In this document: positions 2,402 through 23,662 of the stretch, in pieces
Position numbering within the stretch: position 1 is the stretch's first letter
How the letters are laid out: each line of letters begins with the position of its first letter
NCBI RefSeq assembly: GCF_012033735.1
Contig: NZ_JAAVJD010000002.1
Span: 1-64,000 of the forward strand
Source: Streptomyces lonarensis
GTDB lineage: Bacteria > Actinomycetota > Actinomycetes > Streptomycetales > Streptomycetaceae
DNA: 64,000 nucleotides
Direction of reading: 5' to 3'
Made by a program: the position numbers and the translations under genes
Notes under the pieces: generated by a model
Seen by the model: only the letters and a program-made list of their open reading frames with translations
Databases searched by the model: none
What the model was told of the DNA's origin: nothing

Positions 2402-2776
2402 TTAGGCATTGCCTGTCCATACGATCCGCTGCTGGAACGCGCCACGACCCAGGGCCTTCTGGACGCGGACCACGTCGAGTTCGGCGGGCGTGAACCCCAG
2501 GTGCCGGGCGAGGGCGTGCACCACCTCCAGGACATCGGCGAGCTCTTCCACCTGCGCCGAGACATGCTCGGCGACCAGGAACTCGGCGAGTTCCTCCTGA
2601 AGCTTGTCCTTCAGACGCTGCACGTACTCCTCGTCGTCAGCGACGTAGGTCCGAGGCTCCCCGCCATCGCGACGGATGATCTCCGGGATGAGATCGCGGA
2701 CGAGTTTCCCCTGCGCCGCACCAGCGGACAAAGCAGGGGAAGAGCCGCCGTCTCCTCCGGTGTTACGTGAACTCAC
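2402..2776 (-). CDS. MazG-like nucleotide pyrophosphohydrolase (COG4997-type)
   Basis: This small all-alpha NTP pyrophosphatase resembles the predicted house-cleaning family COG4997: KLVRDLIPEIIRRDG near the N-terminus, then the metal-binding helices KLQEELAEFL and QVEELADVLEVVHAL with the E-E...E-x-x-D spacing, and the closing RGAFQQRIVW. The family removes pyrophosphate from non-canonical nucleotides. I chose the GTG at 2776, which overlaps the last codons of the PLD gene; an ATG at 2815 is possible but would lie on PLD coding sequence. It is the fourth gene of the helicase-GHKL-PLD operon, so it probably works in, or is carried along with, that defence module. Possible roles are depleting or editing the nucleotide pool during infection; this is inference. 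Confidence 0.75.
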   Translation of the reverse strand: MSSRNTGGDGGSSPALSAGAAQGKLVRDLIPEIIRRDGGEPRTYVADDEEYVQRLKDKLQEELAEFLVAEHVSAQVEELADVLEVVHALARHLGFTPAELDVVRVQKALGRGAFQQRIVWTGNA

Positions 2777-3680
2777 GGCCCTGTCGAATCTCCCAGGGCC
2801 CTGTAGGGACGACACGTACTTCGCCGAAGTACTTGAGCCACTCGCAGATGTTCTCCGCGGCCCGCTGCGCCTGTGCCTCCGTGGTTCCGTCCGCCTCCAT
2901 CAACTGCTGCTGAAGGTCGGCCATGCTCAGCCGTCCGCTCGTCACCAGCTGCTCGACCTCGGGCATGGCGTGTAGCTCCGCCAGCACGGCCTTGGAGAAG
3001 GCAGTCTCACTGAGCCCCTGGGGCAGGTTGAGGTGGGCCAGGTCCCGGACCACCCCAGCGAGGATCTCGCTGACGTAGTCGTGGCGGCTGCCCCTGTAGA
3101 CCGGGTAGAGGCGATGCGGCGCCCGCGTCTCGGGACGCCAGGAGGGACCGTCTTCTTCCGCCTCTTCCGTGACCACGACGAACTTCGGGCAGTCTTCGTC
3201 GCTCTTCAGGACGTCGGCCTGAGCGCGAATCTGGCGCGCAAGTTCGAGCGTCGCCGGCACAGCGGTCGCCTGGATGTCGCGCAGGAGTTGCTGCACCTCG
3301 GGATGCGCTTCGGGTACCTCGACCAGGACCTCCAGGTTCCTCGGCTGCCGACGCCCTGTGGCCTTCGCGGTGAGGTTGGCGGAGCCCACCAGGCACCGGT
3401 CGTCAGCGAGGTACAGCTTCGCGTGGAGATCGTGGCACAGCAGGATGGAGACCCGGCTGTCGGCCGCAGCAAGTTCGGCGATCTCCGGGTCGGACACGCC
3501 GGCCGCCACCTCCATCACGGACCAGCGAGTCACGCAGAGGATCTCCGCCTCGGCCGCCGTGACAGCGCCCACGGCGGCCGCGAAGACCTCGCGCTTGATG
3601 AACGGCGCCACGAGGACCACGCGGCCGCGAGCGGTCGCGAGCAAGCCCTCGATCTGCCGCCAGACGTGGTCAGACGTCAC
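2763..3680 (-). CDS. Phospholipase D-family nuclease of the GHKL/helicase defence operon
   Basis: A 305-aa protein with one HKD motif: H86-x-K88-x4-D93 followed by G99-S100-x-N102 (HAKLYLADDRCLVGSANLT). PLD enzymes with a single motif usually dimerise to build one active site, and many bacterial defence nucleases have this form. The rest is a predicted helical C-terminal domain of unknown function, with no signal peptide. The ATG at 3680 overlaps the stop of the GHKL ATPase gene by four bases (ATGA), and the 3' end overlaps the MazG gene, so the set is translationally coupled. Likely role: DNA cleavage directed by the GHKL ATPase and helicase. A lipid-cleaving role is possible but unlikely in this setting. 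Confidence 0.85.
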   Translation of the reverse strand: MTSDHVWRQIEGLLATARGRVVLVAPFIKREVFAAAVGAVTAAEAEILCVTRWSVMEVAAGVSDPEIAELAAADSRVSILLCHDLHAKLYLADDRCLVGSANLTAKATGRRQPRNLEVLVEVPEAHPEVQQLLRDIQATAVPATLELARQIRAQADVLKSDEDCPKFVVVTEEAEEDGPSWRPETRAPHRLYPVYRGSRHDYVSEILAGVVRDLAHLNLPQGLSETAFSKAVLAELHAMPEVEQLVTSGRLSMADLQQQLMEADGTTEAQAQRAAENICEWLKYFGEVRVVPTGPWEIRQGREFT

Positions 3681-5590
3681 TCGTCATCCTCGTCGTCGTC
3701 ATCGTCGTCAGGGAGGTCGGCGGTGAAGAACTCGCTGGCCAGGCGACCCCAGTCCTGGCGCATCTTCTTCACTCGGTCCTTGGCCTTGGACTCGTCCGGA
3801 AGCTCATCCTCGAAGCGCGCCCACGAGAAGAGCAGGAGCTTGAACGCGCTTGCCGCCTGCTCGAGGCGGTGGGCGAGCTCGGCCCGGCTGGCATCCTCAA
3901 CGTCGCTGTCGAGGACGGCCACGAGCTGGTTGTACACCGGGTGGTCCATGTTGAGCGCGACCTGGAGCAGGCCCGGGATGAACTCGATGTTGAAGAAGGC
4001 CGGCGAGTCCGGGTTGCGGCTGGTCAGCAGCCGCACCTTGCGATGCTGCGCCGTCGTCTCCTCGATGATCCGCTTGGCATCGGCTTCCGGGTACCGATGA
4101 GTCTCCACGAGGCTCTCGAGCTGGGCCTGCTCGATCTCCTCAGGGGTGGCCTCTTTCTCCAGGGCCTCGGTCCGGCTCGGAGGAACCTCGGTGCGGCGCT
4201 TCTTGACCGCCTGGTCCGCTTGGACCTCGGCGGTCTCGTGCCGCTTCCTGTTGCTCCGACCGCCACGGGTCTGATCCTGGAGGTCCTTCCGGAGCCGGCC
4301 GATCAGCTTCTGGCGGATGTGGTAGACGATGTCGATCAACGGAAGTCGCTGATCCCCTTCTTCCTGGAGCTGTGCACGGAACTCGCCCCAGCTCATGCCG
4401 GTCCCCGCAGCTTCCTCCTCCCAGTCGAAGTGAGCCAGGTTGGAGAAGGCGGTGGCCGCCTGCTTGTTGTTGGTGACGCCGAACACCTCGTCGAGCTGGG
4501 GCGGAAACTCGATCTCGATGCCCCACCAGCGCTCGACCGGGTCGTAGGTGCTGGTCCAGCCCTTGTCGAGGTCCAGCTCGCGGTTGGCTCTGATCAAGGA
4601 GACGCCCAGGTTACGCGCCGCGTGCTTACCCCAAGGCGTGGAGCCCGGGTTGGCGGTGGGCGAGATGCCGTCCGGCCAGGGCTTGCCGTCGATGTCGGAG
4701 CGGCGGGCTTCATCCTTAGCGATGGAGGCCCGGACAATCACCGGGTACTCGTTGCCGTCGATGCCCTTGACCATGAACTCTTCGACACCCACCTGCCCGA
4801 CGGAGCCGGCGCCGCACGGACGGAACATCGGCGCGGTGTCGAACGGGTAGGGGGTCGACGTGTGCGGCATCAGGTACAGGGGGTCGTTCGGTCGCGCGTC
4901 CTTGGCGTCGACCTCTTCCCCTCCGTGGACCGGGACGAGCCTGATCCGGCAGATGCCGTCAGAGATGAACCGCCGGTAGACGCGACCGATCAATTCCTCG
5001 GTGTTCCGCAGAGTCGCCGTGGCGCCGAGCCACTGGACACGGTCGAGGTTGGTCCACAGGACGAGCGTGCCCGACTGCCCGAGCCCCTGGCTGAGCTTCT
5101 GCCACTCGTCGGGCAGGGGGTAGTGCGACGGAGCCGGAACCTGGGCATGGGTCCCTTCTATCTCCTCGATGTCCAGGTAGGTGTAGAGCGCGTTGTCCGG
5201 GCCGTTCTGCCAGGACCACACCTCGACGCGCTTGCACTGGGACATGCTGGAGTTGGGCAGTCCGACTCCGAAGCGCCCTATTCCCTTGCGGTCCTGTCGG
5301 GTACCGACGCCGAACCGGAGGGACCGGCGCAAGGTCTCGCGGTCCATCCCCCTGCCGTTGTCCATCACGGCGATCTTCTCGACGTGGTACCGAGCGCGCT
5401 CGGTGCGGCGCTCGGACGCCTCCACCGCAAAAAGCTCGACGATGTCGGCGCCCGCCTCGATGCCGTTGTCGATCAGCTCGGCGATGGCGTGGGCAGTGGA
5501 CTTGTAACCGCTGTCGCGCATCGCCTTGATCGTCATGTCGGAGCTGACGATCGGGTAGGAGTCCTCGATGTCGATCACCTGTTGCTCCAT
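3677..5590 (-). CDS. GHKL ATPase (MORC/MutL-like), defence operon subunit
   Basis: The 637-aa protein has a clear Bergerat ATP-binding fold at its N-terminus: N-box E38-LIDN42, G1 box DNGRGM at 77-82 and G2 box GIGRFGVGLPNSS at 103-115. The GVGLPNSS form resembles prokaryotic MORC-type ATPases, which Iyer, Abhiman and Aravind (2008) linked to restriction-like loci with helicases and nucleases. The C-terminal half is helical, has a basic stretch (KKRRTEVPP) and ends in an almost purely acidic tail (DDDDDDEDDE). The ATG at 5590 overlaps the helicase 3' end by 16 bases. ATP-driven clamping on DNA is the expected role; the nuclease would be the PLD protein downstream. Confidence 0.85.
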   Translation of the reverse strand: MEQQVIDIEDSYPIVSSDMTIKAMRDSGYKSTAHAIAELIDNGIEAGADIVELFAVEASERRTERARYHVEKIAVMDNGRGMDRETLRRSLRFGVGTRQDRKGIGRFGVGLPNSSMSQCKRVEVWSWQNGPDNALYTYLDIEEIEGTHAQVPAPSHYPLPDEWQKLSQGLGQSGTLVLWTNLDRVQWLGATATLRNTEELIGRVYRRFISDGICRIRLVPVHGGEEVDAKDARPNDPLYLMPHTSTPYPFDTAPMFRPCGAGSVGQVGVEEFMVKGIDGNEYPVIVRASIAKDEARRSDIDGKPWPDGISPTANPGSTPWGKHAARNLGVSLIRANRELDLDKGWTSTYDPVERWWGIEIEFPPQLDEVFGVTNNKQAATAFSNLAHFDWEEEAAGTGMSWGEFRAQLQEEGDQRLPLIDIVYHIRQKLIGRLRKDLQDQTRGGRSNRKRHETAEVQADQAVKKRRTEVPPSRTEALEKEATPEEIEQAQLESLVETHRYPEADAKRIIEETTAQHRKVRLLTSRNPDSPAFFNIEFIPGLLQVALNMDHPVYNQLVAVLDSDVEDASRAELAHRLEQAASAFKLLLFSWARFEDELPDESKAKDRVKKMRQDWGRLASEFFTADLPDDDDDDEDDE

Positions 5591-7200
5591 ACGTCCTCCC
5601 AGTTCGTGAATGCCTGCGCTACGTCCCCGAATCCTGGGAGATCAGGATCGATGACCGTGATCACGTCACACGTTGAGGTGCCCCCCGCCTTGGGGCCGCG
5701 GATGACCCGTCCCACCATCTGGCTGTACAAGACCAACGAGCGGGTGGGCCGAGCGATAACGGCTGCGCTTGCAGCCGGCGCGTCGAAGCCGGTGGTGAGC
5801 ACGCCGAAGTTGGACAGGACCATCGGCTTGCTCGACGGCCCCTTGAACCGAGCGATGACCTTGTCCCGGTGCCGGGGCGGCGACTCGGCCGTCACCTGCT
5901 CGGCGTCGATCCCGAGGGCAGACAGGGTCGCGACCAGGAGGCGGCTGTGCTCGACGGAGGCTGCGAACAGGATGATCCGCCGGTGTTCCTCCGCCAGGTC
6001 GAGGATGGTGCGCACCACCTGAAGGTTCCACTGCTCGTTGGCCGCGAGTGCTTCGACCATGCCCTCGGGTAGATCGAAGGTGGCGGCGACTGCGCGCCGG
6101 TCCGCAGCGCTCAGCTCCATGCCTGAGGAGGCCGCGACCGTCCGGAAGTCGGGGCGAGCCAGGTAACCCTGTTCGATCAAGGCGGTGACCGGATTGTCAT
6201 AGCCGTCGATCTCGAGCATCACCTTCTGCCGCGCGAAGAACTCCGACAGCTTCTCGTCCGCCGAGATGTCGGCCCAGGTGCGACCGGGCGTCGCCGTCAG
6301 CCCGAGCAGGCTCGCGTCACGCCGCAGAGTGAGCGCCTCCACCACTCGGCTGTAGGTGGGCGCGATGGCTTGGTGAGCCTCGTCAAAGACCGTAAGCGTG
6401 GTGTGCAGCGCGAGCCGGTCGTAGAACGACGGATCGGCCTTGGCAGCAGCGACCGCCTTGTCCACGCTGAGAACAACGAGGCCGTCCGTGACGCCCTCCA
6501 GGTCAGCGGGAGTGTCGCCCCACATGCGCACCACGCTGACGTCGCGGTTGCCCAGAGCACCCCAGGCGCGCTCGAACTCGCCGGCGGCCTGCTCAAGAAG
6601 CTCACGCCCTCGGGCAAGCCACACCACCACAGTCGGTTCGTGTGCCCGGAGGTGGTCGCAGATGATGTTCATTCCGGTACGGGTCTTACCGACGCCGGTG
6701 GGCAGGTGCAGCACCGCACGGCGTTCGCCGGAGTAGAGCAACTTGTGTACTCGGCTCGCGGCGCGGCGCTGATGCGGGAAGAGGCCGTAGGCCGGTGTGG
6801 CGGAGGATCGCGGAGAAACGCGCGTCTCTGATGCACGCTCAACTACCAAGCCCAGAAAGCCGAACAGCGTCCGCTTCTGTTCGGCCGACCACTCGACCTT
6901 GGAGAGGAAGGCGTCCTCGCTGGCAGAGCCGTCCCAGCCGAGTCGCTGGGCGAGCTCCCGCCGCTTGGGGGCAGGCACCAGAGCAAGGAAAGCGCTCCGG
7001 TCCTCCGGATCCGCCATGACCGCTTCGGCCGACACGGCACTCGCCGCGACCTTGCGCAACAGCGCCTCGTCGGCCGCTCCACCGCTGAGCAGGTCGAGCA
7101 GCGAGCAGGCGCTGTCGCCGAGCAGATGCCGCACATATGTGAGGGGCGCCTGCTCAAGCACCTCTTGAAACGGGTAGCCGGGTGATGAGGCCGCGCTCAC
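5575..7200 (-). CDS. SF2 DEAD/DEAH-box helicase, first gene of defence operon
   Basis: I place the start at GTG 7200, preceded by GAGGCAGGG, which gives 541 aa; a TTG at 7293 adds 31 unlikely residues. Helicase motifs in order: FPHQRRA (141-147), motif I PTGVGKT (167-173), motif II DEAH (273-276), motif III TAT (302-304), a GFDAPA motif V region (471-476), and motif VI QMVGRVIRG (494-502). This set resembles type I/III restriction and Rad25-like translocases. The first 140 residues are a family-specific helical domain. It is divergent from the phosphorothioation operon, sharing about 400 bases of upstream DNA, and starts the helicase-GHKL-PLD-MazG operon. It probably unwinds or scans incoming DNA. 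Confidence 0.9.
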   Translation of the reverse strand: MSAASSPGYPFQEVLEQAPLTYVRHLLGDSACSLLDLLSGGAADEALLRKVAASAVSAEAVMADPEDRSAFLALVPAPKRRELAQRLGWDGSASEDAFLSKVEWSAEQKRTLFGFLGLVVERASETRVSPRSSATPAYGLFPHQRRAASRVHKLLYSGERRAVLHLPTGVGKTRTGMNIICDHLRAHEPTVVVWLARGRELLEQAAGEFERAWGALGNRDVSVVRMWGDTPADLEGVTDGLVVLSVDKAVAAAKADPSFYDRLALHTTLTVFDEAHQAIAPTYSRVVEALTLRRDASLLGLTATPGRTWADISADEKLSEFFARQKVMLEIDGYDNPVTALIEQGYLARPDFRTVAASSGMELSAADRRAVAATFDLPEGMVEALAANEQWNLQVVRTILDLAEEHRRIILFAASVEHSRLLVATLSALGIDAEQVTAESPPRHRDKVIARFKGPSSKPMVLSNFGVLTTGFDAPAASAAVIARPTRSLVLYSQMVGRVIRGPKAGGTSTCDVITVIDPDLPGFGDVAQAFTNWEDVWSNR

Positions 7201-7597
7201 GCCCTGCCTCGCGGTCGCCGCACACCCAACATGACCTGTGGAGTCTTCATCGACACCTGTACGCCCCCCCGGGCTACTTGCGTAATGACACAACTACTCA
7301 TCGCCACAGGGTCGGGATCAGTCGATCTCGCGGCGAGTGGTTCAGCGTAACCTCCACCGCCGACAGCAGAGGCGTGCCTGCGACGGAATGCCGCGGTTCG
7401 GGGATCACGTTGCAGCTAGCGGCTGCTTAGTCGAGGCGCGAACGGCTTCCGGTGCCCCCACCCGACCCTCCGTTACTGCGGACTGTCATAGGTGGCGGAT
7501 AGCATCCCGGTACACTCCTGGTGGAAGAAGAGAGTCCGCCGAAAATCTCCACCAGGACCGGCCCAAGATCATTACAGCGAGGGGGGGAGTGGCGCGC
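7201..7597. promoter_or_regulatory. Divergent promoter region with a 10-bp inverted repeat before sspA
   Basis: About 400 bases without a gene separate the two divergent defence operons, so both promoters must lie here; I cannot pick the -35/-10 boxes with confidence. A perfect inverted repeat, TCCTGGTGGA at 7516-7525 and TCCACCAGGA at 7548-7557, lies 40 bases before the sspA start and would sit in its 5' leader or over its promoter. It may be an operator or an RNA hairpin. The ribosome site AGGGGGGGAG (about 7580-7589) fits the ATG at 7598. Confidence 0.5.
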
Positions 7598-8764
7598 ATG
7601 CGTACGGAGGGCGAGGTCGTCTACCTCGACTACAACGCCACGGCGCCCATGCGACCCGAGGCGCTCGAGGCCACTGTCTCGGCGATGCAAACCGTCGGGA
7701 ATGCCTCAAGCATGCACCATCTCGGGCGAGATGCCGCAACTCGCGTAGATCATGCCCGGCGTCAGGTGGCTGATCTGCTGAACTGCTCTCCGGGTGAGCT
7801 GATCTTCACGTCAGGGGCCACCGAAGCCAACAACCTTGCCCTGCACGCTGCCTACGCGCGTGGAGGGTATTTGATGACGTCTGCCGTCGAACACCCGGCC
7901 GTCCTGGAAGCTGCCCGGTCGCTCACGGCGGAGCAGCCGGATGCCCTCGTGGTTCTCCCCGTGGACTCCGATGGGGCGCTCGATCTGGAGCTGCTGTCGT
8001 TCACGCTTGCGGAGCGTGATGTCGCCCTTGTTTCGATCATGCTTGCCAACAATGAGACCGGCGTCCTGGTCGACCTCCGCCCGGTTGTCGAGGCGGCCCA
8101 CGCGGCCGGTGCCCTGGTCCACACGGACGCCACGCAGTACGTGGGCAGGCTCCCGCTGGACCTGAGCGAGCTCGACGTTGATCTGCTCTCTCTGTCGGCG
8201 CACAAATTCGGAGGCCCGCAGGGAGTCGGAGCGTTGTTCGTTCGCCGCGGTGCCGCCCTGCCATACAGGCCGATCCTGGTGGGTGGAGGCCACGAGCGTG
8301 GCTGGCGCGCCGGCACGTTGAACGTCGCGGGCATCGTCGGCCTCGGGGCGGCGGCTGAAGCAGCGGGTAAGCGGCTGGAACATGAGGCTGTTCGCATCGG
8401 CGAGCTGCGTGACCGGCTAGAGGGACTGCTCCTGGCGAAGGTCGATGACTGTCACATCAACGGTCGCCGCCTGGCGCGGCTTCCCGGAGTCACGAGCGTT
8501 ACGTTCCCCGGAGTGCCAGCAGATGCGGTACTGGTCGCGATGCCGCACGTGGCTGCATCTGATGGCAGTGCTTGCTCCTCCGGAGCGCCTAGCCCGAGCC
8601 ACGTGCTTCTCGCGATGGGCCGCAGCAGGGAGGACGCCGACTCGACGATCCGGCTCTCACTCGGCTACGCCACAACAGAGCAGGACATCGAACGAGCCGC
8701 CGAGGCTGTGGTGGCCGGAGTGCAGCACGTTCGCACGGTCTTGGCCGCCACGCACGCCCCCTGA
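7598..8764 (+). CDS. sspA: Cysteine desulfurase of DNA phosphorothioation system (SspA/DndA-like)
   Basis: A 388-aa PLP enzyme of the NifS/IscS class. It begins with VYLDYNATAP, has the PLP lysine K203 in SLSAHKFGG, the phosphate-binding SGATEANNLA, and the catalytic cysteine C326 in GSACSSG. It takes sulfur from cysteine and holds it as a persulfide. In Dnd and Ssp systems this sulfur is handed to the DndC/SspD ATP pyrophosphatase. The first gene of a four-gene operon whose other members match SspB, SspC and SspD, so a role in DNA backbone sulfur modification is much more likely than general Fe-S assembly. I chose ATG 7598 because of the strong purine-rich site before it; GTG 7589 is in frame but too close to that site. 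Confidence 0.9.
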   Translation: MRTEGEVVYLDYNATAPMRPEALEATVSAMQTVGNASSMHHLGRDAATRVDHARRQVADLLNCSPGELIFTSGATEANNLALHAAYARGGYLMTSAVEHPAVLEAARSLTAEQPDALVVLPVDSDGALDLELLSFTLAERDVALVSIMLANNETGVLVDLRPVVEAAHAAGALVHTDATQYVGRLPLDLSELDVDLLSLSAHKFGGPQGVGALFVRRGAALPYRPILVGGGHERGWRAGTLNVAGIVGLGAAAEAAGKRLEHEAVRIGELRDRLEGLLLAKVDDCHINGRRLARLPGVTSVTFPGVPADAVLVAMPHVAASDGSACSSGAPSPSHVLLAMGRSREDADSTIRLSLGYATTEQDIERAAEAVVAGVQHVRTVLAATHAP

Positions 8765-8820
8765 GCGACGTTGCCTTTATAGACCTTTTGACCGCATATC
8801 TAGGGAAGGGCGCAACCCCG

Positions 8821-9927
8821 ATGCCAGACAGTCGGCTTGCTGAAGCCGTCGAGCTTTCCTTTGGGCGCCATGAGACCTTTGCCCCGCGCTTCGGCTGGCT
8901 CCACAAGGCTTACATGCAGGTAAAGGACCACAGTGACATCTTCCTTCGCGATGACGCCCCCGTGGTGCTCGGCGTCGGCAAGAACATGGTCTACGCCATG
9001 CGGTACTGGTCGCGCGCGTTCAAACTCACCAAGGAACACGACCACGAGGACCCCAAGCAGCGGGCGCAGCTTGCCGCTCCCACGTGGCGGGCACGCTGGC
9101 TCCTCGACGAGGACGGGGCGGACCCCTACCTCGAGGACACCGGAAGCCTGTGGCTGCTCCACTGGTGGTTGCTCTCCGCCGACTCACCGGCTGCCAAGTG
9201 CTGGGCGCCGAGTTGGTACGTGACATTCAACCTGGCCCCGCGGTCCCGGGTGACCGCGGCCGAGCTGACCCGGGTGATCACTCGTCACGTCCACGAGACC
9301 TTCCCAGAGAAGGACTGGCCGGCGGCTGAATCGATCAGCCGGGATGTTGACTGCTTGATCAAGATGTATGCCTCTGATCAGGAGCTCAACCCTCTGTCGC
9401 CGGGCAGCTTCGAGGACCTGCTGATGTCTCCGTTCCGCGAGCTCGGTCTGCTGGAGGGCCAGGGGAAGGGCAAGGAGCGCACATGGCGCTTCACCAACGG
9501 CGCACGGTCGAACCTCCCCGCCGCCGTCCTTGCGTACGTGTGCCTGGACTACGCGGCACGATTCCACTCGAGCGCCGGCTCCATTTCCGTCGCCCGCCTC
9601 GCCGAAGAGGAAGGGGCACCGGGCCGGGCCTTCCGAATGCGCGAGCCGGAGATCACCAAGGCGATCGAATCGATCGTCAGCGACCACCCGCGTCTCCAGC
9701 TGGTCGAAGCTCTCGGGCAGCGCAGCCTCCGCTTCGAAGATGCGCCGCAGGATCTGGCCTGGGACATCTTGGACGAGCACTACGACCACGTCCGGAGGCG
9801 GGACCGCTTCCCAACGCCGGAGGACTGGGAGGAGCGCTACCCCGGGCTCCGCCGTGCCGGCGTGAAGCGTCCACGCAAGCAGGGGCAGCGGACGGAAGAG
9901 CAGGACCTGATCGAGGGGATGGCGTGA
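8821..9927 (+). CDS. sspB: DUF4007 protein, SspB-like subunit of single-strand phosphorothioation
   Basis: The 368-aa protein opens with LSFGRHETFAPRFGWLHKAY and then DDAPVVLGVGKNMVYAMRYW, the signature I associate with DUF4007. In the published SspABCD system SspB is a DUF4007 protein reported to nick DNA so that sulfur can be inserted in one strand. I see no classical nuclease motif by eye. ATG 8821 follows AGGGAAGGG at a good distance; the TTG at 8788 is less likely. It lies 56 bases after sspA, and its stop overlaps the sspC start (GTGA), as in a coupled operon. A DndB-like regulator role is less likely because the gene order is that of ssp. Confidence 0.85.
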   Translation: MPDSRLAEAVELSFGRHETFAPRFGWLHKAYMQVKDHSDIFLRDDAPVVLGVGKNMVYAMRYWSRAFKLTKEHDHEDPKQRAQLAAPTWRARWLLDEDGADPYLEDTGSLWLLHWWLLSADSPAAKCWAPSWYVTFNLAPRSRVTAAELTRVITRHVHETFPEKDWPAAESISRDVDCLIKMYASDQELNPLSPGSFEDLLMSPFRELGLLEGQGKGKERTWRFTNGARSNLPAAVLAYVCLDYAARFHSSAGSISVARLAEEEGAPGRAFRMREPEITKAIESIVSDHPRLQLVEALGQRSLRFEDAPQDLAWDILDEHYDHVRRRDRFPTPEDWEERYPGLRRAGVKRPRKQGQRTEEQDLIEGMA

Positions 9928-12900
9928 TCATGGAAGCCCAGTCCACCCAGCTGGCTAGCCTGGTGGCCGCTCCCCCTCAGGTTCCTGCCGGCATCTCGCT
10001 CGTCGGTTCCCAGATGCGCTCCACCAATTTGGAGCGCGATGTTCAGCTGCAGGACCTCGGAGAGCCGTACTTCGGGGTGCGAGCCCTGGACATCCTCGAT
10101 CGCGTAACCAATGCCATCGAGGATCTTCGACGTCCCCGTGCATGGTCGTTCACTGGTCCGTACGGCTCCGGTAAGTCGACCCTCTCGAACCTTTTCGACG
10201 CGCTCCTCGGTGACGACCAGGCCCGCCGCGATGCAGCCCACAGGGCTGTCACCGCAACCAGCGAGGGGCAGGCGAACAGGCTTGCGCGAGTGCGTGACGA
10301 ACTCGCCGAGAAGGGCTTCCTCGGAGCGGTCGCCACGGCGCAGCGAGAGCCTCTGGCCGTCACGCTTCACCGAGCACTGGAGACCGCGGCCACCCGGCGA
10401 TGGGGGAAGCGGCGCCCGAAGGACGTCGCCGCGGCTCTGGCCGCCTGCGCCGAAGGGGAGCTGCCCACTCCGCAGAACCTGATCGAAGCGACCACCGTTC
10501 TGTGCAGCAAGGACCCCGTCCTGCTGATCATCGACGAGTTCGGCAAGACGCTGGAGTACCTGGCCGCTCAGGGCGACTCCGGCAGTGCTGCGAACGATGT
10601 CTACCTGCTCCAGATGCTGGCCGAGAAGGGCGCGGGCCGTACCGGCCTCCGGCTCTTCATGTTCACCCTGCAGCACCTGTCGTTCACGGACTACGCCGCC
10701 CGCTCGAGCGCGATCCAGACCCAGGAATGGGCCAAGATCCAAGGGCGCTTCGAGGACATCACCTTCGCACCGAACCTCGGCGACTCGGTTCACCTGATGT
10801 GTCGGCGCCTGGACCACTCCAAAGTCAGCGCACAAGGACACGCGCTCATCAGGGCTCAAGCTGATGCCGCTGACGCCTTCTGGCGTGACAACGCGCTGCT
10901 CTCGGTTGTGGACATCTCAGCGCGGAGATTCGCCCTCCTGTACCCGCTGCATCCGTTGACCGCAGTGGCTGCTCCGCTTCTGGCCTCCCAGATCGGGCAG
11001 AACGACCGGAGCCTCACGGGCTTCCTGTCGAGCGACGAGCCGAACACCGTCCGCCGAACGCTGGAGACTGCAGCGTCGGAGGCCTCCGAGCGGGCCACGA
11101 CCATCCGGGTGCCCCAGCTCTACGACTACTTCTTTGCGTCGGGACGCACCACCATCCTGGCGTCTTCGAACGCCAGTCGCTGGCTGGAGGTGGACTCCCG
11201 GATCAATGAGGCTCACGGGCTGCCGACCGAGGACCAGGAAGTCCTCAAGGCGATCGGCATCCTGAACCTCATCGACACTGACGGGCTGCTGAGGGCAACC
11301 CCCTCGATGATCCACTTCGCGCTGAACGACCCGGTGCAGGTTACCGACCCTGTGTCGTTTGCCGCGCTGCAGGAGCGGCTTGAGAGGTTGGTAGAGGACG
11401 GCTTCGTCGTCCACCGTGCCTATAGCAACGAATACCGCGTCTGGCAGGGAACCGACGTCGACATCGACAACCGGGTCCGGGAAGTCACTGCCCGTATCGA
11501 TCCGACCGATGTCGTGCAGTACTTCAGCCAGCACCTGGGGAGCGTGCTGCCGTCGGCAGTCGTCGCCGGCGGACACAGCCAGCGCACTGGCATGCTCCGC
11601 TACTTCACCACGGCGGTAAGCCACAAGGGCGGCAAGGTCAGTGGTCCGGACGTCATTCAGGACGCAGCGGACGGCATGGTCCTGTTCCACCTCGGACCCA
11701 TCGAGGACCGGCCCATGGTGGACTCACCCTTGCCGGTGCTGATCGGCACGACGAAGGACCCGGACGCGGTGCTGCGCGCCGGCATCGACCTGGTTGCGCT
11801 CGAAGAACTTCTCGACGATGACACCATCGACCACGTCGCCAAGCGTGAGATCGAGGAGCGAGCCTCCGAACTCGCCCAGAACATGGGCTTCCTGCTGGAC
11901 ACGGCCTTCCACCCGCTGGCCTCCCAGTCGACGTGGTCTCTGTGGCACAAGGGCACGAATGTCCCCGACCAGGACAGTGAGCCGATCGAGGCGCGCAGCT
12001 ACGCGAACCTGGCCTCCCAGGCGTGTGACCGCGTCTACAAGCACACGCCGCACATCCGAAACGAGATGCTCGGCCGTCACCAGCTCACCAGCAACGGAGC
12101 CCGTGCCCGTCGGGAGCTGCTGACCGCGACGCTTCAGCAGTCGGGTCTCCCTCTCCTCGGCTTCGACAAGACGAAGTACACGCCCGAGCGGGCGATGTAC
12201 CACGGTGTCCTGGAGTACCTCGGGCTTCACCAGGCGGCGGGGGAGGTCAAGGCCGGCACAGAGGGAGGAAGCCTCCTCACCCACGGCCTGAGCCGCCCGA
12301 GCGCTGAGAAGAACGAGAGCGTCCTCGCTGTCTGGGAAGCAGTGGACGAAGCCCTCACCCACGCCAAGCAGCCCACCCCAGTCGTGGACATCTACCGGCA
12401 TCTGATGGCGCCGCCCTACGGCGTGAAGGCCGGCGTCGTGCCGATCCTGCTCGTCACGGCACTGATCCTCCGCTCGCAGGACGTCGCCCTCTTCGAGGAC
12501 GGAAACTACTGCCAGCGACTCACGCCAGAGATCATCGAGCGACTCAACGTCCCGTACCCGGACCGGTTCACCGTCAAGGCGTCGCCGTCCGGTCGAGGCC
12601 AGCGCCGGCTTGTCGTTGACCAGCTCGCCAAGTCCCTCAACGCGGACACCCCCAAGTCCCGAACGGCACGTAACCCAGCCCTTCTCTCGGTGACGCGGGC
12701 GATCCTCGAGCGGATCATGGTCATGGACCCGTACGGCCGTCAGACCCGCCGACTCAGCCCCGAAGCGGTCGCCATCCGCGCGGTGCTCTCGGCGGCGACG
12801 GATCCTGACGAGCTGGTCTTCATCTCGCTGCCCCAGTCTCTTGGCATGGAGCCGATCGGCCCGAGCATGCCCAGGGATGAGGGCGCCGCCCGGGCCTACG

Positions 12901-13538
12901 TCGATCGCCTCACGACGGCGCTCGACGAGCTCTCCGGGGCCAGAGCGGCCCTGCGGCGCGAAGTCGTCGGTGTCCTCGCCCGGGAGTTCAGGCTCCCCGC
13001 CGACCTGACGGAGTTGCGTACGGGCCTGACCGAGCGCCTCAGCGGGTTCGCCAGCGCGCCTCTGGAGCTCAGCCTGCAGGGTTTCGTCTCCCGGGTCCTC
13101 AACAAGAGCCTGCCGGACGAGGACTGGCTGGACCCGCTCATCATCCGCCTGACGAACAAGGCTCTGGGCGACTGGAACGACAGGGACGTCGAAGCGTTCC
13201 CGCGGCAGGTCCGCGAAGTCGCCCGAGCTCTTGACCGCGTGAGCCACCTCTACGAGGTCCAGGAGGCTTCGACCACCGGCGAGGGCAAGGCCGCCAAGCC
13301 GCGTCAGATCGACACCCATCTGCTGACGCTTACCACACCCAGTGGCACCGAGGAGCGCACGCTAATCCACGTGCCTCGACAGTCGCGCCAGACTGCTGAC
13401 GAGCTTGTTGTCAGTGTCATCAAGCAAGCTGAAGATGCACTGGGCCCCGACGGAGCACGCATCCTGCTCGCCGCACTGGCCGAGCACCTTGCCGCGAAGG
13501 ACTCCGCCGAGCAGCCCCATACTAAGGAGACGCCGTGA
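9924..13538 (+). CDS. sspC: Large P-loop ATPase, SspC-like
   Basis: About 1,200 aa. Counting from the ATG at 9930, Walker A is GPYGSGKST at 76-84 and Walker B is VLLIIDEFGK at 197-206. The rest is a long region without obvious motifs, ending in an acidic tail. SspC is the ATPase of the ssp operon, thought to drive the DNA transactions of modification together with SspB and SspD. Two starts are possible: GTG 9924, which overlaps the sspB stop and lies five bases after GAGGGG, or ATG 9930. Everything upstream in the same open frame is the antisense-like shadow of sspB and should be ignored. The size and context also recall BrxC-type ATPases, but the neighbours are not BREX genes. Confidence 0.85.
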   Translation: MIMEAQSTQLASLVAAPPQVPAGISLVGSQMRSTNLERDVQLQDLGEPYFGVRALDILDRVTNAIEDLRRPRAWSFTGPYGSGKSTLSNLFDALLGDDQARRDAAHRAVTATSEGQANRLARVRDELAEKGFLGAVATAQREPLAVTLHRALETAATRRWGKRRPKDVAAALAACAEGELPTPQNLIEATTVLCSKDPVLLIIDEFGKTLEYLAAQGDSGSAANDVYLLQMLAEKGAGRTGLRLFMFTLQHLSFTDYAARSSAIQTQEWAKIQGRFEDITFAPNLGDSVHLMCRRLDHSKVSAQGHALIRAQADAADAFWRDNALLSVVDISARRFALLYPLHPLTAVAAPLLASQIGQNDRSLTGFLSSDEPNTVRRTLETAASEASERATTIRVPQLYDYFFASGRTTILASSNASRWLEVDSRINEAHGLPTEDQEVLKAIGILNLIDTDGLLRATPSMIHFALNDPVQVTDPVSFAALQERLERLVEDGFVVHRAYSNEYRVWQGTDVDIDNRVREVTARIDPTDVVQYFSQHLGSVLPSAVVAGGHSQRTGMLRYFTTAVSHKGGKVSGPDVIQDAADGMVLFHLGPIEDRPMVDSPLPVLIGTTKDPDAVLRAGIDLVALEELLDDDTIDHVAKREIEERASELAQNMGFLLDTAFHPLASQSTWSLWHKGTNVPDQDSEPIEARSYANLASQACDRVYKHTPHIRNEMLGRHQLTSNGARARRELLTATLQQSGLPLLGFDKTKYTPERAMYHGVLEYLGLHQAAGEVKAGTEGGSLLTHGLSRPSAEKNESVLAVWEAVDEALTHAKQPTPVVDIYRHLMAPPYGVKAGVVPILLVTALILRSQDVALFEDGNYCQRLTPEIIERLNVPYPDRFTVKASPSGRGQRRLVVDQLAKSLNADTPKSRTARNPALLSVTRAILERIMVMDPYGRQTRRLSPEAVAIRAVLSAATDPDELVFISLPQSLGMEPIGPSMPRDEGAARAYVDRLTTALDELSGARAALRREVVGVLAREFRLPADLTELRTGLTERLSGFASAPLELSLQGFVSRVLNKSLPDEDWLDPLIIRLTNKALGDWNDRDVEAFPRQVREVARALDRVSHLYEVQEASTTGEGKAAKPRQIDTHLLTLTTPSGTEERTLIHVPRQSRQTADELVVSVIKQAEDALGPDGARILLAALAEHLAAKDSAEQPHTKETP

Positions 13539-14371
13539 CCAGCACGAACACCCCGGAAGGGAAGAAGCGCCACGTCCTCGGCCTGTCCGGGGGCAAGGAC
13601 TCCTCCGCTCTCGCGATCTACATGCGTGACCGCGTCCCGGACATGGAGTACTTCTTCTGCGACACCGGCGCCGAGCTGCCGGAGACCTACGAATACCTCA
13701 ACCGCCTCGAAGCTGCGGTCGGCAAGCCGATCGTCCGCCTCAACGCGAGCCGGGACTTCGACCACTGGCTGGAGGTCTACCAAGGCACCCTGCCCAGCCC
13801 CCAGATGCGCTGGTGCACAAAGAACCTGAAGATCAGGCCGCTCGAAGAGTGGGTGGGCGACGACGAGGTCATCTCGTACGTCGCGATCCGTGCTGACGAG
13901 AACCGTCTCGGCTACGTCAGCACCAAGCCGAACATCGAGGCCGTCTTCCCCTTCCGGGAGGACGGCATCGACCGGGCCGGGGTGGACCGCATCCTCGACG
14001 AGGCCGGCATCGGCCTCCCGGCCTACTACGAGTGGCGCACGCGCTCCGGCTGCTACTTCTGCTTCTTCCAGCGCAAGCACGAGTGGGTCGGTCTCAAGGA
14101 CCGGCACCCGGAGCTTTTCGAGAAGGCCATAGCGTACGAGGAGAAGGTCAACTACCGGCGCACGGCCATGCAGGAGCGTCAGTACACCTGGTCCCAGGGC
14201 GAGTCGCTCCACGAGCTCATAGAACGCCGCGACGAGATCGAGGCCAAGCACGAGGCCGCCCTGGAGCGTGCCGCGAAGCGCACGAAGCCGAACCGCCCGC
14301 TCCTGGAGATCCTCTCCGACGCCCTCGACGAGGACGACGACTCGGCAGCCTGCGCGGTCTGCCACCTGTGA
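13535..14371 (+). CDS. sspD: PAPS-reductase-family ATP pyrophosphatase, SspD/DndC-like
   Basis: The 278-aa protein has the PP-loop SGGKDSS at 18-24 and the family cysteines: C94 in MRWCTKN, then C173 and C176 in SGCYFCFFQRK. DndC-type proteins use such cysteines for an Fe-S cluster. It activates the DNA backbone phosphate with ATP so that sulfur from SspA can replace a non-bridging oxygen. An extra C-terminal CAVC (about residues 273-276) follows a charged helical stretch. GTG 13535 overlaps the sspC stop and is preceded by AAGGAGA. Last gene of the operon; a strong hairpin follows. Free PAPS reductase activity in sulfate assimilation is the alternative, but the operon argues against it. Confidence 0.9.
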   Translation: MTSTNTPEGKKRHVLGLSGGKDSSALAIYMRDRVPDMEYFFCDTGAELPETYEYLNRLEAAVGKPIVRLNASRDFDHWLEVYQGTLPSPQMRWCTKNLKIRPLEEWVGDDEVISYVAIRADENRLGYVSTKPNIEAVFPFREDGIDRAGVDRILDEAGIGLPAYYEWRTRSGCYFCFFQRKHEWVGLKDRHPELFEKAIAYEEKVNYRRTAMQERQYTWSQGESLHELIERRDEIEAKHEAALERAAKRTKPNRPLLEILSDALDEDDDSAACAVCHL

Positions 14372-14381
14372 TCTGCGCCCT

Positions 14382-14415
14382 GAGCCCGGTCCACGCATCA
14401 GCGTGAACCGGGCTC
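14382..14415 (+). terminator. Hairpin terminator after sspD
   Basis: GAGCCCGGTCCACGC (14382-14396) pairs with GCGTGAACCGGGCTC (14401-14415) with one mismatch and a four-base ATCA loop. No U-run follows, as is usual in high-GC actinobacteria. It separates the ssp operon from the following GHKL/GIY-YIG pair. Confidence 0.75.
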
Positions 14416-14436
14416 AAGCATGCAACCGGCGGGGCA

Positions 14437-14456
14437 GTGTCAGAGTTACCTGACAC
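14437..14456 (+). promoter_or_regulatory. Palindromic operator-like site before second GHKL ATPase
   Basis: GTGTCAG (14437-14443) and CTGACAC (14450-14456) form a perfect 7-bp inverted repeat with a 6-base spacer, 70 bases before the ATG at 14526. The size fits a dimeric HTH repressor site. No regulator gene is adjacent; the XRE proteins at 18.7-19.8 and 21.7-22.1 kb are possible partners. Confidence 0.4.
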
Positions 14457-14525
14457 ACTGTGAGGCCAGAGAGAACTTACGGTTCTTCTTTCCAAGATCA
14501 GTCGCTTGCAAGGGGGCGGGGAAAG

Positions 14526-16202
14526 ATGGTTGAGCAGCACGGACAGCCTGCGCCAGACGCCGTGGTCGCGGAGGTTCCAATCAATCCGGGCCGGGTACTC
14601 CGCGCCATCGCGCGCATCGGCTACACGCCCGAAAGCGCAATCTGTGACATCGTAGACAATTCGGTTGCAGCTAACGCTCGTAGGGTTGCGATCGTCCTTG
14701 AGCGGCAGCCCAACGTGGCTGAGTCGCGCCGCAATAGTGCCGCGCGATACGTCATTGCCGATGACGGCGACGGTATGGACGAGACGAGCCTGATCGAAGC
14801 GCTGGGACTGGGCACCGAGAGGCCATACGACAAAGACAGCCTCGGGAAATACGGTCTCGGGCTGAAGAGCGCTGGTCTTTCACAGGGAGATCGCCTCGTC
14901 GTGGTCAGCGCTCCACGAGGGGGCAGCTGGAGCAAAGTTGTACTCGACCTTCCGCATGTGGAGAAGGTCGGGAAGTTGGAATGCTTGGTCATGGAGCCGA
15001 ATGAGGTCGACCTCGCGCGTATTGAGCAACTGATCCCGGGAGCTGAGCACGGAACAGTCGTTACTATTGAGAAGGTTCATAAGTCCAATCATCCCAGCAT
15101 CCGTAAGACGCGAGAAGCCCTGAAGCGAAACCTGGGGGTGACTTATTTCTATTTCCTTCAGGGCGGGGACCGTGAGTTCGATATTTGGCTCGACGGTGAG
15201 CCCGTAGCTCCATTTGACCCCCTGTTCGTTGACGAAGCTGACGCCGGAGGTAATCTGGACGATTCGACGTGGGATGGCCGCTCGGTTCGATGGCTTGAAC
15301 GCCAGCGTTCGGTAGTACTGGACTCCGAAAATGGTGTGCGAGCACAGTTGGAGGCCACCCAGCTTGTGCACCCGCCAGCCTTCGATAATCCCGCAGAGAT
15401 TCGTAAAAAGTACATGATTGGAGCCGGTCACTACGGCTTCTACATCTACCGGAACAGGCGGCTCATTCGCTGGGCTGAGCGTTTCGATGGGATCATCCCA
15501 ACAGATCAGGATTTCTTTGCATTTCGAGGTCGGATTCTGATCGATGATACTGCTGACGACGCATTCAATATCGACGTCAAGAAGTCCCAGATACTGCTGA
15601 GTGAAGAAGCTGAGCAGTCGCTGGATGATGCCGTACATGAAGCTAAGCGCCAAAGCAAAGTTGCATGGAAGACGGCAGCCAAAATCCTCAGGCGGAAGGC
15701 GAACTCTGATCCATACAGCAAGGCAGCCGAGGCTCTGAGCGAGATTGAGTTCCCGGACCTTCTGCCGGCTGACCCCGACGACGTTATGGCCGAGGCGGAA
15801 CGCAGTAAGCGTGCCGAGAAGGAGTCGGTTAGGCATCCGCTGAAGAGCGGTGAGCGCGAGCAGGCCCGCAAGGACGGGGCCAGAGTCACCCTCGTTGATC
15901 AGCTGGACGATAACGCGCTTTGGGAGCGAGCCCACGATGCAACGCTCGGGACAGTGGTGAGGGTAAATCGATCGCATCGCTTCATGCGCATGTTTGAGGA
16001 GCGATTCGGCAGTGATGCCGACGTCGTCCTCCTGCTGCAGGCCCTGTTCTTGAGCTTGGCATTCGCTGAAAGCGGGACAGTGCGCAATAAGCAAGACCTC
16101 GATGACGAGATCATTGAAGAGGTGTTCGTCAGGTTCCGCAATCAGGCTTCTGCGGCAGTCTATAAGGCGACCACTGACGCCCTTGAGCGGCGCTTCGCTT
16201 AG
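14526..16202 (+). CDS. Second GHKL ATPase, partner of GIY-YIG nuclease
   Basis: A 558-aa protein with a Bergerat fold: N-box region AICDIVDNS (D41-N45), G1 DDGDGM (79-84) and G2 GKYGLGLKSAGLSQG (107-121). It belongs to a different subgroup from the ATPase at 3.7-5.6 kb: the usual Glu of the N-box is Asp here (D41), and the lid is GLGLKSA. The C-terminal part is helical and charged. ATG 14526 follows AAGGGGGCGGGG; an upstream GTG at 14460 has no ribosome site. Codon use is clearly more AT-rich than in the ssp genes, which suggests separate acquisition. The GIY-YIG gene begins 13 bases after the stop, so the two form a pair: ATPase plus nuclease. Confidence 0.8.
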   Translation: MVEQHGQPAPDAVVAEVPINPGRVLRAIARIGYTPESAICDIVDNSVAANARRVAIVLERQPNVAESRRNSAARYVIADDGDGMDETSLIEALGLGTERPYDKDSLGKYGLGLKSAGLSQGDRLVVVSAPRGGSWSKVVLDLPHVEKVGKLECLVMEPNEVDLARIEQLIPGAEHGTVVTIEKVHKSNHPSIRKTREALKRNLGVTYFYFLQGGDREFDIWLDGEPVAPFDPLFVDEADAGGNLDDSTWDGRSVRWLERQRSVVLDSENGVRAQLEATQLVHPPAFDNPAEIRKKYMIGAGHYGFYIYRNRRLIRWAERFDGIIPTDQDFFAFRGRILIDDTADDAFNIDVKKSQILLSEEAEQSLDDAVHEAKRQSKVAWKTAAKILRRKANSDPYSKAAEALSEIEFPDLLPADPDDVMAEAERSKRAEKESVRHPLKSGEREQARKDGARVTLVDQLDDNALWERAHDATLGTVVRVNRSHRFMRMFEERFGSDADVVLLLQALFLSLAFAESGTVRNKQDLDDEIIEEVFVRFRNQASAAVYKATTDALERRFA

Positions 16203-16215
16203 AGAAGGATAGAGG

Positions 16216-16719
16216 GTGGGGGACTCTCCGGCGGAAGGAGAATGGGGCTCCGCAATCATTGGGCGCCCCACTCTCTGTCGCACTCGCGCGTACGTCTACT
16301 GCGGCTACTCAAGAAGTGTCCGCGTTGCCTATATCGGCATGACCATGGGCCGTAATGGCATATTCGGCAGATGGGGTGATCACCTCGGGCGCGCTCTTGA
16401 GAGATCATCGTTTCGTAGGCGACTCTACGAGTTTGATGAAGATGCATGGGATCGCATGGATGACCTTGCCATCTTTTGGGCCGAAATGGGCGAGCAGCAG
16501 GAGTTTGTGACTGTGGAAACGCTCCATCGCGAGGCGGTTGAGTATCTTGTGCAGCGGGAATTGCGTGAGATTGTTGCTCTGGGTGACCCGCCTCTGCGAG
16601 TGATCAGCAAGGTGCGTTCCAATCGAGCTGTGCAACTTCCAATGGTGAGGCAGGGTGCCGGTCGTATTGTGGCTCAGTTCCGCGATCACTTCGAGGCTGC
16701 TAACGGGATGGCCTTCTGA
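16216..16719 (+). CDS. GIY-YIG-family nuclease
   Basis: A 167-aa protein with the GIY-YIG layout: RAYVYCGYS at 24-32 for the first half, AYIGMT at 38-43 for the YIG half, a conserved GRWGDHL that may supply the arginine, and E106 in LHREAVEYLVQ, where the metal-binding glutamate of this fold is expected. Such nucleases cut one DNA strand at a time. GTG 16216 is preceded by GAAGGA. It shares the low GC of the ATPase gene just upstream and overlaps the convergent phage remnant gene by 20 bases, so the pair seems to have been inserted next to the prophage fossil. The motif match is partial, so the catalytic call is less certain than the fold. Confidence 0.75.
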   Translation: MGDSPAEGEWGSAIIGRPTLCRTRAYVYCGYSRSVRVAYIGMTMGRNGIFGRWGDHLGRALERSSFRRRLYEFDEDAWDRMDDLAIFWAEMGEQQEFVTVETLHREAVEYLVQRELREIVALGDPPLRVISKVRSNRAVQLPMVRQGAGRIVAQFRDHFEAANGMAF

Positions 16720-18707: not shown

Positions 18708-19808
18708 TCAGCTGGTGACCAGCCGCAGTGCCGGCCGCTGCCGTTCCTCGGTCTTGGTCGTGCTGCCGCCGCTCTCGACGGTGGTGAGGGTGAGGCCGAA
18801 CAGCATGGAGTTCATCTCCTCGACGGTGATGTCGAGTTCGGCGGCGACGTCGGCGGGCCGGATGCCCTTGGTCCGCAGGGCCCGGAAGACCTTGGTGAGG
18901 ACCTGTGAGGTCTCGCGTTGCTTCAGACCGTTCGGTTCTCCGGTGCGGTAGCCGCGGGAGCTGAGTTCGGCGCAGACGGAGCGGTACTGCCAGTCGGTGA
19001 GGAGGTTGAGGTCGTGCAGCCGGTAGGTGAGGGCCATGGCCGACACCTTCCAGATCGACTTCGCCTCGAGGACCTGGTCGACTCGGGCGCCGGCCGGCAT
19101 GTGGCCGAGGACGCTGGCGGCGGGCATGAGGAATGCGCTGGCAAAGCTGTTGGCCTGGCGCTCGGCGTCGGGGCCGCTGCAGTGTCTGTCGTCGCTGCCG
19201 TGCATCACTAGGTGGCCGAGCTCGTGGGCGGCGTCGAAACGGCCTCGTTCGACGGACTTCATGGTGTTGAGGAAGACGAACGGGATGGTGCCCCGCCAGA
19301 CGGCGAAGGGGTCCACCTCGAGGGAGTCCGCGGGAAGGGAGAAGACGCGGACGCCGTGGGCCTCGAGGAGGTGAACCATGTTGGGCGCGGCGGCGTTCCC
19401 CAGGCCCCATCGGCTACGGACCATCTCGGCCGCGGTCTCGGCGTCAGGCTTCGTCAGCGAGGGGAGGTCTGGTTCAGGTAGGCGGAACTGCTCGTCGATC
19501 CAGTCGTAGAGGCGGGCTGCCAGGGTGCCGGCCGCTCGGGCGGCGTCGAGTGTGCGGGGTGGCGTCTTGGTGCGTGCCCGCCAGGAGATCCCTTCGGCAG
19601 GCAACTCGTCGATCTCGCGACCGCTGAAGAAGCCTTCCGGGAACCCGAGCGCCTCGGCGAGACGGCGCACGGTGGTGGAGCGAGGCGCGGTCCGGCCCGT
19701 CTCGTAGTTCGACAGGCTCTGCAACGACAGGCCCGTTGTTCGGGAGAGCTCGGCGAGGGTGAGCCCCCGGCGTCTCCGGGCCAGCGTGATGCGGGATGGG
19801 GTCACCAT
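18708..19808 (-). CDS. XRE HTH / ImmA-IrrE zinc metalloprotease
   Basis: 366 aa from ATG 19808. Residues 5-60 are an XRE-type helix-turn-helix (LTLAELSRTTGLSLQSLSNY), followed by a linker and an ImmA/IrrE (DUF955) domain with zinc motif H195-ELGH199 and downstream ERQANSFASAFLMP, where the third ligand region lies. Proteins of this class bind DNA and cut or sense repressors; many control mobile elements or act with a toxin-like partner. It is 77 bases downstream of a 221-aa gene in the same direction, so the two form an operon. The pair is intact although it is embedded between broken phage genes, suggesting that selection still acts on it. Confidence 0.85.
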   Translation of the reverse strand: MVTPSRITLARRRRGLTLAELSRTTGLSLQSLSNYETGRTAPRSTTVRRLAEALGFPEGFFSGREIDELPAEGISWRARTKTPPRTLDAARAAGTLAARLYDWIDEQFRLPEPDLPSLTKPDAETAAEMVRSRWGLGNAAAPNMVHLLEAHGVRVFSLPADSLEVDPFAVWRGTIPFVFLNTMKSVERGRFDAAHELGHLVMHGSDDRHCSGPDAERQANSFASAFLMPAASVLGHMPAGARVDQVLEAKSIWKVSAMALTYRLHDLNLLTDWQYRSVCAELSSRGYRTGEPNGLKQRETSQVLTKVFRALRTKGIRPADVAAELDITVEEMNSMLFGLTLTTVESGGSTTKTEERQRPALRLVTS

Positions 19809-19885
19809 GGTCGTCGACTGCCTCGCGGGTTGGGTGGTGCGGGGGTGCGGCACTCCCGCCAAGAGTGCCGCACCCGGACGGTTGA

Positions 19886-20551: not shown

Positions 20552-20653
20552 GCAACCTCCGGGGTGGGGAACAGATCTTATAGGAACCATACCGCATCTG
20601 CGGTTCCATTCTTATAATCGCCTGCTGCTGGCTGAGCGTTACATCGCCCCCGT

Positions 20654-23561: not shown

Positions 23562-23662
23562 CCGCCGAGGGCAGGCCGCCGGTTCACGGCGCCAGGCTCT
23601 GGGCCTTTTCGGCAGACAGGTGAAGCGCGTTGCCCCGGAGGCACGTGGCTCGTTCACCGGTC

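Follow-up and report, generated by a model that had tools for sequence, protein, structure and literature searches.

What do a GHKL ATPase gene and a putative GIY-YIG-type nuclease gene do directly behind the ssp genes of Streptomyces lonarensis? We analysed a stretch of 64,000 nucleotides (hereafter the window; assembly GCF_012033735.1, contig NZ_JAAVJD010000002.1, positions 1 to 64,000) from a 5.95-Mb genome assembled into 482 contigs. The original prediction took the two adjacent genes, which we call the pair, for a candidate two-gene defence system. According to published biochemical work on the family, SspABCD adds sulphur to one strand of host DNA; we found sspA, sspB, sspC and sspD intact, complete, in order and in one cluster directly upstream of the pair, with PADLOC matches over approximately the full model length (Table 1). 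The reading that we favour, and regard as fairly likely, is that the pair is an undescribed, swappable alternative restriction effector of the Ssp phosphorothioate (PT) system; it is probably a cutting module of Ssp rather than a separate defence.

Table 1. Features of the Ssp locus in the window, in order of position.
Feature	Position	Strand	Evidence
PLD-type nuclease-like protein, companion module	2763..3680	-	PLDc_2
Second GHKL ATPase (GHKL2), companion module	3677..5590	-	HATPase_c_3
ResIII/SF2 helicase, companion module	5575..7293	-	Pfam ResIII; PADLOC PbeA 72.8 bits
sspA, cysteine desulphurase, start inferred	7586..8764	+	PADLOC SspA 433 bits, DndA 405 bits
sspB (DUF4007)	8788..9927	+	PADLOC SspB 399 bits; Pfam DUF4007
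sspC, large ATPase, start inferred inside a longer open frame	9930..13538	+	PADLOC SspC 1290 bits
sspD, PAPS-reductase-like sulphur-transfer protein	13535..14371	+	PADLOC SspD 400 bits
Terminator-like hairpin 3' of sspD	14381..14416	.	Inverted repeat, 16-nt arms, 94%, 4-nt loop; no T run
Short palindrome 5' of the pair, possible operator	14437..14456	.	7-nt arms, 6-nt spacer
GHKL (MORC/MutL-like) ATPase, 558 aa	14526..16202	+	Pfam HATPase_c_3; 7-sequence alignment; MORC profile and fold matches
GIY-YIG-type nuclease (putative), 167 aa, GTG start	16216..16719	+	Invariant motif residues (8 homologues); fold rows

The first protein of the pair matches Pfam HATPase_c_3 (1.6e-26), and its N box, G1 and G2 motifs together with an ATPase fold place it in the GHKL superfamily. 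D41..D44-N45, D79-x-G81-x-G83 and G110-L-G112 are invariant in the seven homologues aligned, with an Asp (D41) in the N box where Glu is usual. Its fold matches are MORC/Hsp90 ATPase domains (Z up to 14.9, in a model that is unreliable from about residue 232 on), and MORC chains are also closest by profile, through a weak match to MORC2-4 (best E 1.3e-4). PADLOC returned only a weak match to MzaB of the MZA system, a member of the same ATPase superfamily. This similarity spans residues 26-394 and scores 97.0 bits, where 850 is the curated cut-off (NCBIfam NF041932), which leaves the pair's ATPase outside the MzaB family.

The second protein has no GIY-YIG match in the Pfam scan. Y26-x-Y28, Y39-x-G41, R52, H56, E106 and E109 are invariant in an alignment of eight nuclease homologues, the most distant of which is 31% identical to the window protein; the Tyr pair, Arg, His and Glu of GIY-YIG nucleases are thus all present, and either E106 or E109 is the candidate catalytic Glu. 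We saw among these homologues no invariant Asn comparable to the one in I-TevI. In the AlphaFold model, which has a mean pLDDT of 75 and falls below 50 at residues 1-21 and 48-61, a strand pair is followed by helix, strand and helix. Foldseek by itself yielded no match with E under 0.001, nor any GIY-YIG protein among the 50 matches listed. When the model was looked at a second time with VIA-align, the best 10 rows were all GIY-YIG nucleases, including PD-T4-3, I-TevI, UvrC and Slx1, at weak Z-scores of 3.5-4.8 (next row 2.4); the best of them was the 5hmC-specific nuclease PD-T4-3 (9u75_A, Z 4.8). Searching PDB sequences with the profile of the nuclease produced two rows, both discarded as chance (E 0.4 and 0.64), and PADLOC matched 24 residues to UzuA. 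Motifs and weak Z-scores together point to GIY-YIG as the likely fold of the small protein. Both domains named in the original prediction are supported, the nuclease with weak fold rows.

Is the pair found away from ssp genes? We searched for relatives with the ATPase alone or with the pair as query, and ssp genes were no criterion. Adjacent GHKL/GIY-YIG pairs, which the original prediction had proposed to look for, do occur elsewhere: we found 10 full-length pairs, the window included, in Actinomycetota and Bacteroidota, two of which (L044 and L046) are near-identical. In all 10 the nuclease gene lies directly downstream of the ATPase gene and SspB, SspC and SspD are encoded on the same contig. 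Among 391 genomes of the same order, the ATPase has one other full-length relative (G343, 78% identity) and the nuclease occurs in the same two genomes; weak nuclease matches in G052 (1.1e-5) and G246 (9e-4) were rejected as chance frames on the opposite strand of an apparently intact OmpR-type regulator gene, named by eye from its translation. A genome-collection scan by a single-protein query and exact peptide patterns, which under-counts the distribution and gives lower bounds, yielded at least 21 loci. The full-length kind makes up seven of these: one from Streptosporangium, one from a Bacteroidales MAG and five from Flavobacteriaceae. The Bacteroidota sample held the full-length pair in 2 of 345 genomes, namely the search's own centre and G809.

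ATPase profile scores were bimodal: complete full-length proteins scored at least 781 bits and the next match 142, cut pieces of full-length proteins aside. Just one of 14 more distant ATPase loci has ssp genes (L053, an Acidobacteria MAG, where they lie beside a GHKL2-type ATPase). The nuclease profile matched only loci with a full-length ATPase, about 1.5 kb on each side being covered at the low-scoring loci from genome searches. Across 396 genomes of the phylum it matched the window's own genome only, and in plasmid records the nuclease had no match. The ATPase had 36 plasmid matches, all below 60% identity, a single one of which reached at least 80% coverage, at 26%. Neither protein had a relative in viral contigs by pattern-based scans.

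What stands behind sspD in other Ssp loci? SspD was present at E <= 1e-30 in nine of the 391 order genomes, full-length in eight and as a fragment in one (G100), whose stretch shows no helicase-GHKL2-PLD genes and no other ssp genes. Behind sspD, the eight same-order loci hold the pair in two cases (the window and G343), a full-length SspE in one (G177, 962.6 bits), a DndB-like gene in two (G287, 66.8 bits, and G388, weak at 23.2 bits; L104:14536-15825, L106:4043-6040) and no recognised gene in three (G080, G110 and G241). In seven of the eight actinobacterial DNA comparisons made, collinearity ended no more than 5 bases from the stop codon of sspD; in the eighth, between G080 and G241, which are 97% identical, the alignment runs through the stop. 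Over the stretch that runs from the PLD gene to sspD, G343 and G177 share 83% identity, and they realign beyond the slot (80% over 0.9 kb). The insert between these borders measures 2.9 kb with SspE in G177 and 6.1 kb in G343, where it holds further frames besides the pair. This comparison bounds the slot on both sides; in the window the near border alone is defined. Thus, the pair and SspE are exchanged at the same place in otherwise closely related loci.

No SspE match was found by PADLOC in either protein of the pair, and the sole DUF262 match of the genome, on contig C431, is Orf5-like (468 bits vs 75 for SspE). SspF, SspG and SspH were not named by PADLOC among the subset of window neighbours that was scanned. 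In the gap between sspD and the pair, the original prediction had placed an ssp terminator and a promoter-like palindrome. A terminator-like hairpin and a palindrome are indeed there, but the hairpin lacks a T run, and our scan of 14300-14600, which covers not all promoter types, detected neither a sigma-70 promoter nor a hairpin with a T run.

In Bacteroidota the linkage is tighter, for in six of seven loci sspB, sspC, sspD and the GHKL and GIY-YIG genes follow one another with overlapping, touching or, in the Flavobacteriaceae, nearly touching frames. A Bacteroidales contig has these five genes alone, flanked by apparently unrelated genes; in G809, sspD is separated from the pair by a transposase and an 817-residue gene. 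With all ten full-length pairs in Ssp loci and six of the seven Bacteroidota pairs in an sspBCD operon, the idea of a self-standing two-gene system is not supported. Proteins of 817-849 aa with a weak GHKL match (HATPase_c_3) occur in six of the seven Bacteroidota loci (e.g., L044:1827-4325 and L072:9636-12089); they had no PADLOC match, and tblastn found none in the actinobacterial loci. L044 and L046, from the two genera Marinirhabdus and Winogradskyella, have 21.6 kb including the Ssp cassette in common at 99.4% identity. Because this stretch holds conjugation genes (TraG, in L044), its near-identity suggests a recent transfer on a conjugative element.

Has the pair been acquired separately from its neighbours? 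As originally predicted, it is more AT-rich than they are: GC is 57.7% for the ATPase gene and 57.3% for the nuclease gene vs 65.5-69.1% in ten other window genes measured, and GC3 is 0.65 and 0.60 vs 0.75-0.93. We rejected low GC alone as proof of recent import, since in 6/6 loci measured sspC and sspD have a higher GC than the pair, SspE or DndB-like genes that they accompany. Divergence is more informative. Between G343 and Streptosporangium, SspB, SspC and SspD are 87, 86 and 96% identical and the ATPase and nuclease only 66 and 68%; between the window and G343, the same core proteins are 60, 53 and 86% identical and the pair 76 and 66%. Synonymous differences per site, computed with our own Nei-Gojobori script and possibly influenced by the differing GC of the genes, are 0.40 (SspD) and 0.41 (SspC) vs 0.81 and 0.92 (pair) for G343 and Streptosporangium, and 0.43 (SspD) vs 0.82 and 0.71 (pair) for the window and G343, so that at synonymous sites the pair has diverged about twice as far as the core genes compared. 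In the latter comparison the nonsynonymous differences are far lower (0.14 in the ATPase gene, 0.19 in the nuclease gene), indicating purifying selection on both genes. The core tree joins G343 and Streptosporangium (support 100/100). The pair tree prefers the window with G343 at a support of 82/96, and the core's own grouping (AU 0.114) and the other alternative (AU 0.089) are not rejected; we therefore dropped the notion of a contradiction between the trees. It is the doubled synonymous divergence, not the trees, that leads us to suggest that the pair has in part moved independently of the core genes, although every case found lies in an Ssp locus. Of the predicted separate acquisition, a partly separate history thus survives.

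How could the pair act within Ssp? Since it occupies the position that SspE has in a sister locus, and since the five-gene Bacteroidales cassette offers no other candidate effector, we propose that it is a PT-coupled restriction effector. By analogy with the MORC/paraMORC restriction scheme (PMC2292703) and the fused VcSduA (PMC12137116), both as set out in the accessible portions of these papers, the GHKL ATPase would dimerise into an ATP-driven clamp that closes on DNA, and the PT state would block or license this clamp, either directly or through SspB/SspC. The ATPase, acting as sensor or switch, would then turn on the GIY-YIG protein as the blade, which would nick or cut incoming phage DNA. 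Such a scheme supposes that the two proteins form a physical complex, that the small one is an active nuclease, and that the pair depends on PT and protects against phage. The pair sits in the slot which in a close sister locus belongs to SspE, and as an effector it would travel as a cassette between Ssp loci.

A more specific version, possible but rather doubtful, makes the pair a MutL/MutH-like restriction engine: the one-stranded PT of Ssp would be the strand signal, and the GHKL clamp, stopped by PT on self DNA, would elsewhere license the separate GIY-YIG nickase. If so, the pair would represent a further PT effector class beside SspE, SspFGH, DndFGH, DndI and Pbe, swapped in and out behind sspD in the manner of a cartridge; with the helicase-GHKL2-PLD genes added, some of the Ssp loci that lack an assigned effector would then have one.

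Two observations speak against a simple swap: (i) SspE and the pair coexist in Streptosporangium, where SspE (1076 bits) and the pair share one island but the pair is not behind sspD; there sspA starts about 12 kb and sspD ends about 18 kb from the pair, and this interval contains SspE and the companion module; and (ii) the companion module is a steadier presence than the pair, as helicase-GHKL2-PLD lies divergently upstream of sspA in all nine actinobacterial Ssp loci examined (the eight same-order loci and Streptosporangium). Moreover, of the eight full Ssp loci found among the 391 order genomes, six lack the pair, and Ssp thus works without it. The companion module may be the main effector, or it may be a more general and also unnamed Ssp effector, similar to PbeA split into two genes. 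PbeABCD, according to the available text of PMC6459918, is a PT-dependent effector whose PbeA carries PLD, ResIII and helicase domains, which the companion module has in separate genes; PbeABCD resembles this module and not the pair, and PbeC is described there as SMC-like, not GHKL. A MazG/PRA-PH-like gene ends the companion module in the window (2402-2815, - strand) and likewise in G080, G110 and G241 (4/9 loci), and a remote second PAPS-reductase-like protein (22-24% identity to SspD; L035:3030-3731) is encoded beyond the PLD gene in G343, G177, G287, G388 and G775.

Could the pair be a suicide back-up instead? Rakesh 2024 (PMC10853773) places URI/GIY-YIG nucleases near Dnd genes and, in the part of the article available, proposes such a role for stand-alone URI (GIY-YIG) nucleases bordering Dnd loci; GHKL is absent from what is accessible of its main text. 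Applied here, a non-specific killer nuclease would be restrained by the ATPase and freed when Ssp fails or is attacked, causing abortive infection with no reading of PT. We consider this unlikely: the AT-richness of the pair and its position at the border of the actinobacterial loci would fit, but in Bacteroidota it mostly lies inside the sspBCD operon (6/7 loci), and in the G343/G177 comparison it stands in SspE's position. There is little chance that the pair instead helps to write PT, with the nuclease nicking for sulphur insertion or the ATPase loading SspC and no restriction at all; most full order Ssp loci (6/8) do without it and unrelated proteins, including SspE, take the same slot, which outweighs its location directly 3' of sspD in the Bacteroidota operons. 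Least probable is a type IV-like modification-dependent enzyme directed at modified phage DNA and merely complementing Ssp, for which the 5hmC-specific PD-T4-3 as best fold row and the other defence-like genes nearby (RmrA/RmrT, CRISPR-like array) might speak, but the GIY-YIG rows lie within 1.3 Z of each other, making this match unspecific, and the expected occurrence away from Ssp was seen in 0/10 full-length pairs.

A restriction effector composed of this pair would differ from known systems, which we compare here from the accessible parts of the cited papers. SspABCD-SspE has the same modification genes, SspE in the same slot (G177) and an NTPase joined to nuclease function; SspE, however, is one protein with a DUF262-type N-terminus, whereas the pair consists of a GHKL ATPase and a separate GIY-YIG protein. 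SspFGH is likewise a separate multi-gene effector for sspBCD (PMC8092258), and is described as a three-gene set that includes a Walker A and an FtsK-like protein, as against the two genes here. The MORC/paraMORC restriction systems (Iyer 2008, PMC2292703) are modification-based and place a GHKL ATPase beside a nuclease, but they use methylases, SF2 helicases and RE-fold, HNH or HKD nucleases, and the terms GIY-YIG, PAPS and URI are absent from the text of that paper as available. In VcSduA, a Shedu protein with a GHKL domain (PMC12137116), GHKL ATPase and nuclease are both needed for phage defence; unlike the pair, it is a single fused protein with a PD-(D/E)xK nuclease and, in the text available, stands without PT genes. 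PD-T4-3 and other GIY-YIG defence nucleases share the predicted fold of the pair's nuclease, which in addition has a GHKL partner and Ssp genes.

In the accessible text of PMC10952713, GIY-YIG is named once, for PD-T4-3 and PD-lambda-1, and the main text of a 2026 BREX survey (PMC12839542) contains no GHKL, MutL, GIY-YIG or URI. We found a GHKL plus GIY-YIG pairing for restriction or defence in none of the open, published papers searched. The original statement that the combination is not known as a named system agrees with this outcome and with PADLOC, which gave only the weak MzaB and short UzuA matches. The pair would then constitute a restriction module of the GHKL plus GIY-YIG type, for which the open papers searched contained no published example.

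Why would such a module matter? In the available part of Wang et al. 2021 (PMC8092258), 2,678 sspBCD occurrences are counted, 196 with sspFGH, 199 with sspE and 36 more with both; the remaining 2,247 (84%) have no known cutting partner by the searches of that survey. The defined position behind sspD, whose contents are interchangeable, tells where to look for the missing Ssp effectors and renders the question testable.

Other candidate defence genes lie close to the Ssp locus in the window. RmrA- and RmrT-like genes (18708-20590, - strand; PADLOC 501.7 and 176.7 bits), an HTH plus M78 peptidase protein and its partner, form another candidate defence pair, and at 23001-23568 there is a CRISPR-like array, in which a repeat of about 30 nt occurs nine times with a spacing of 64-69 nt.
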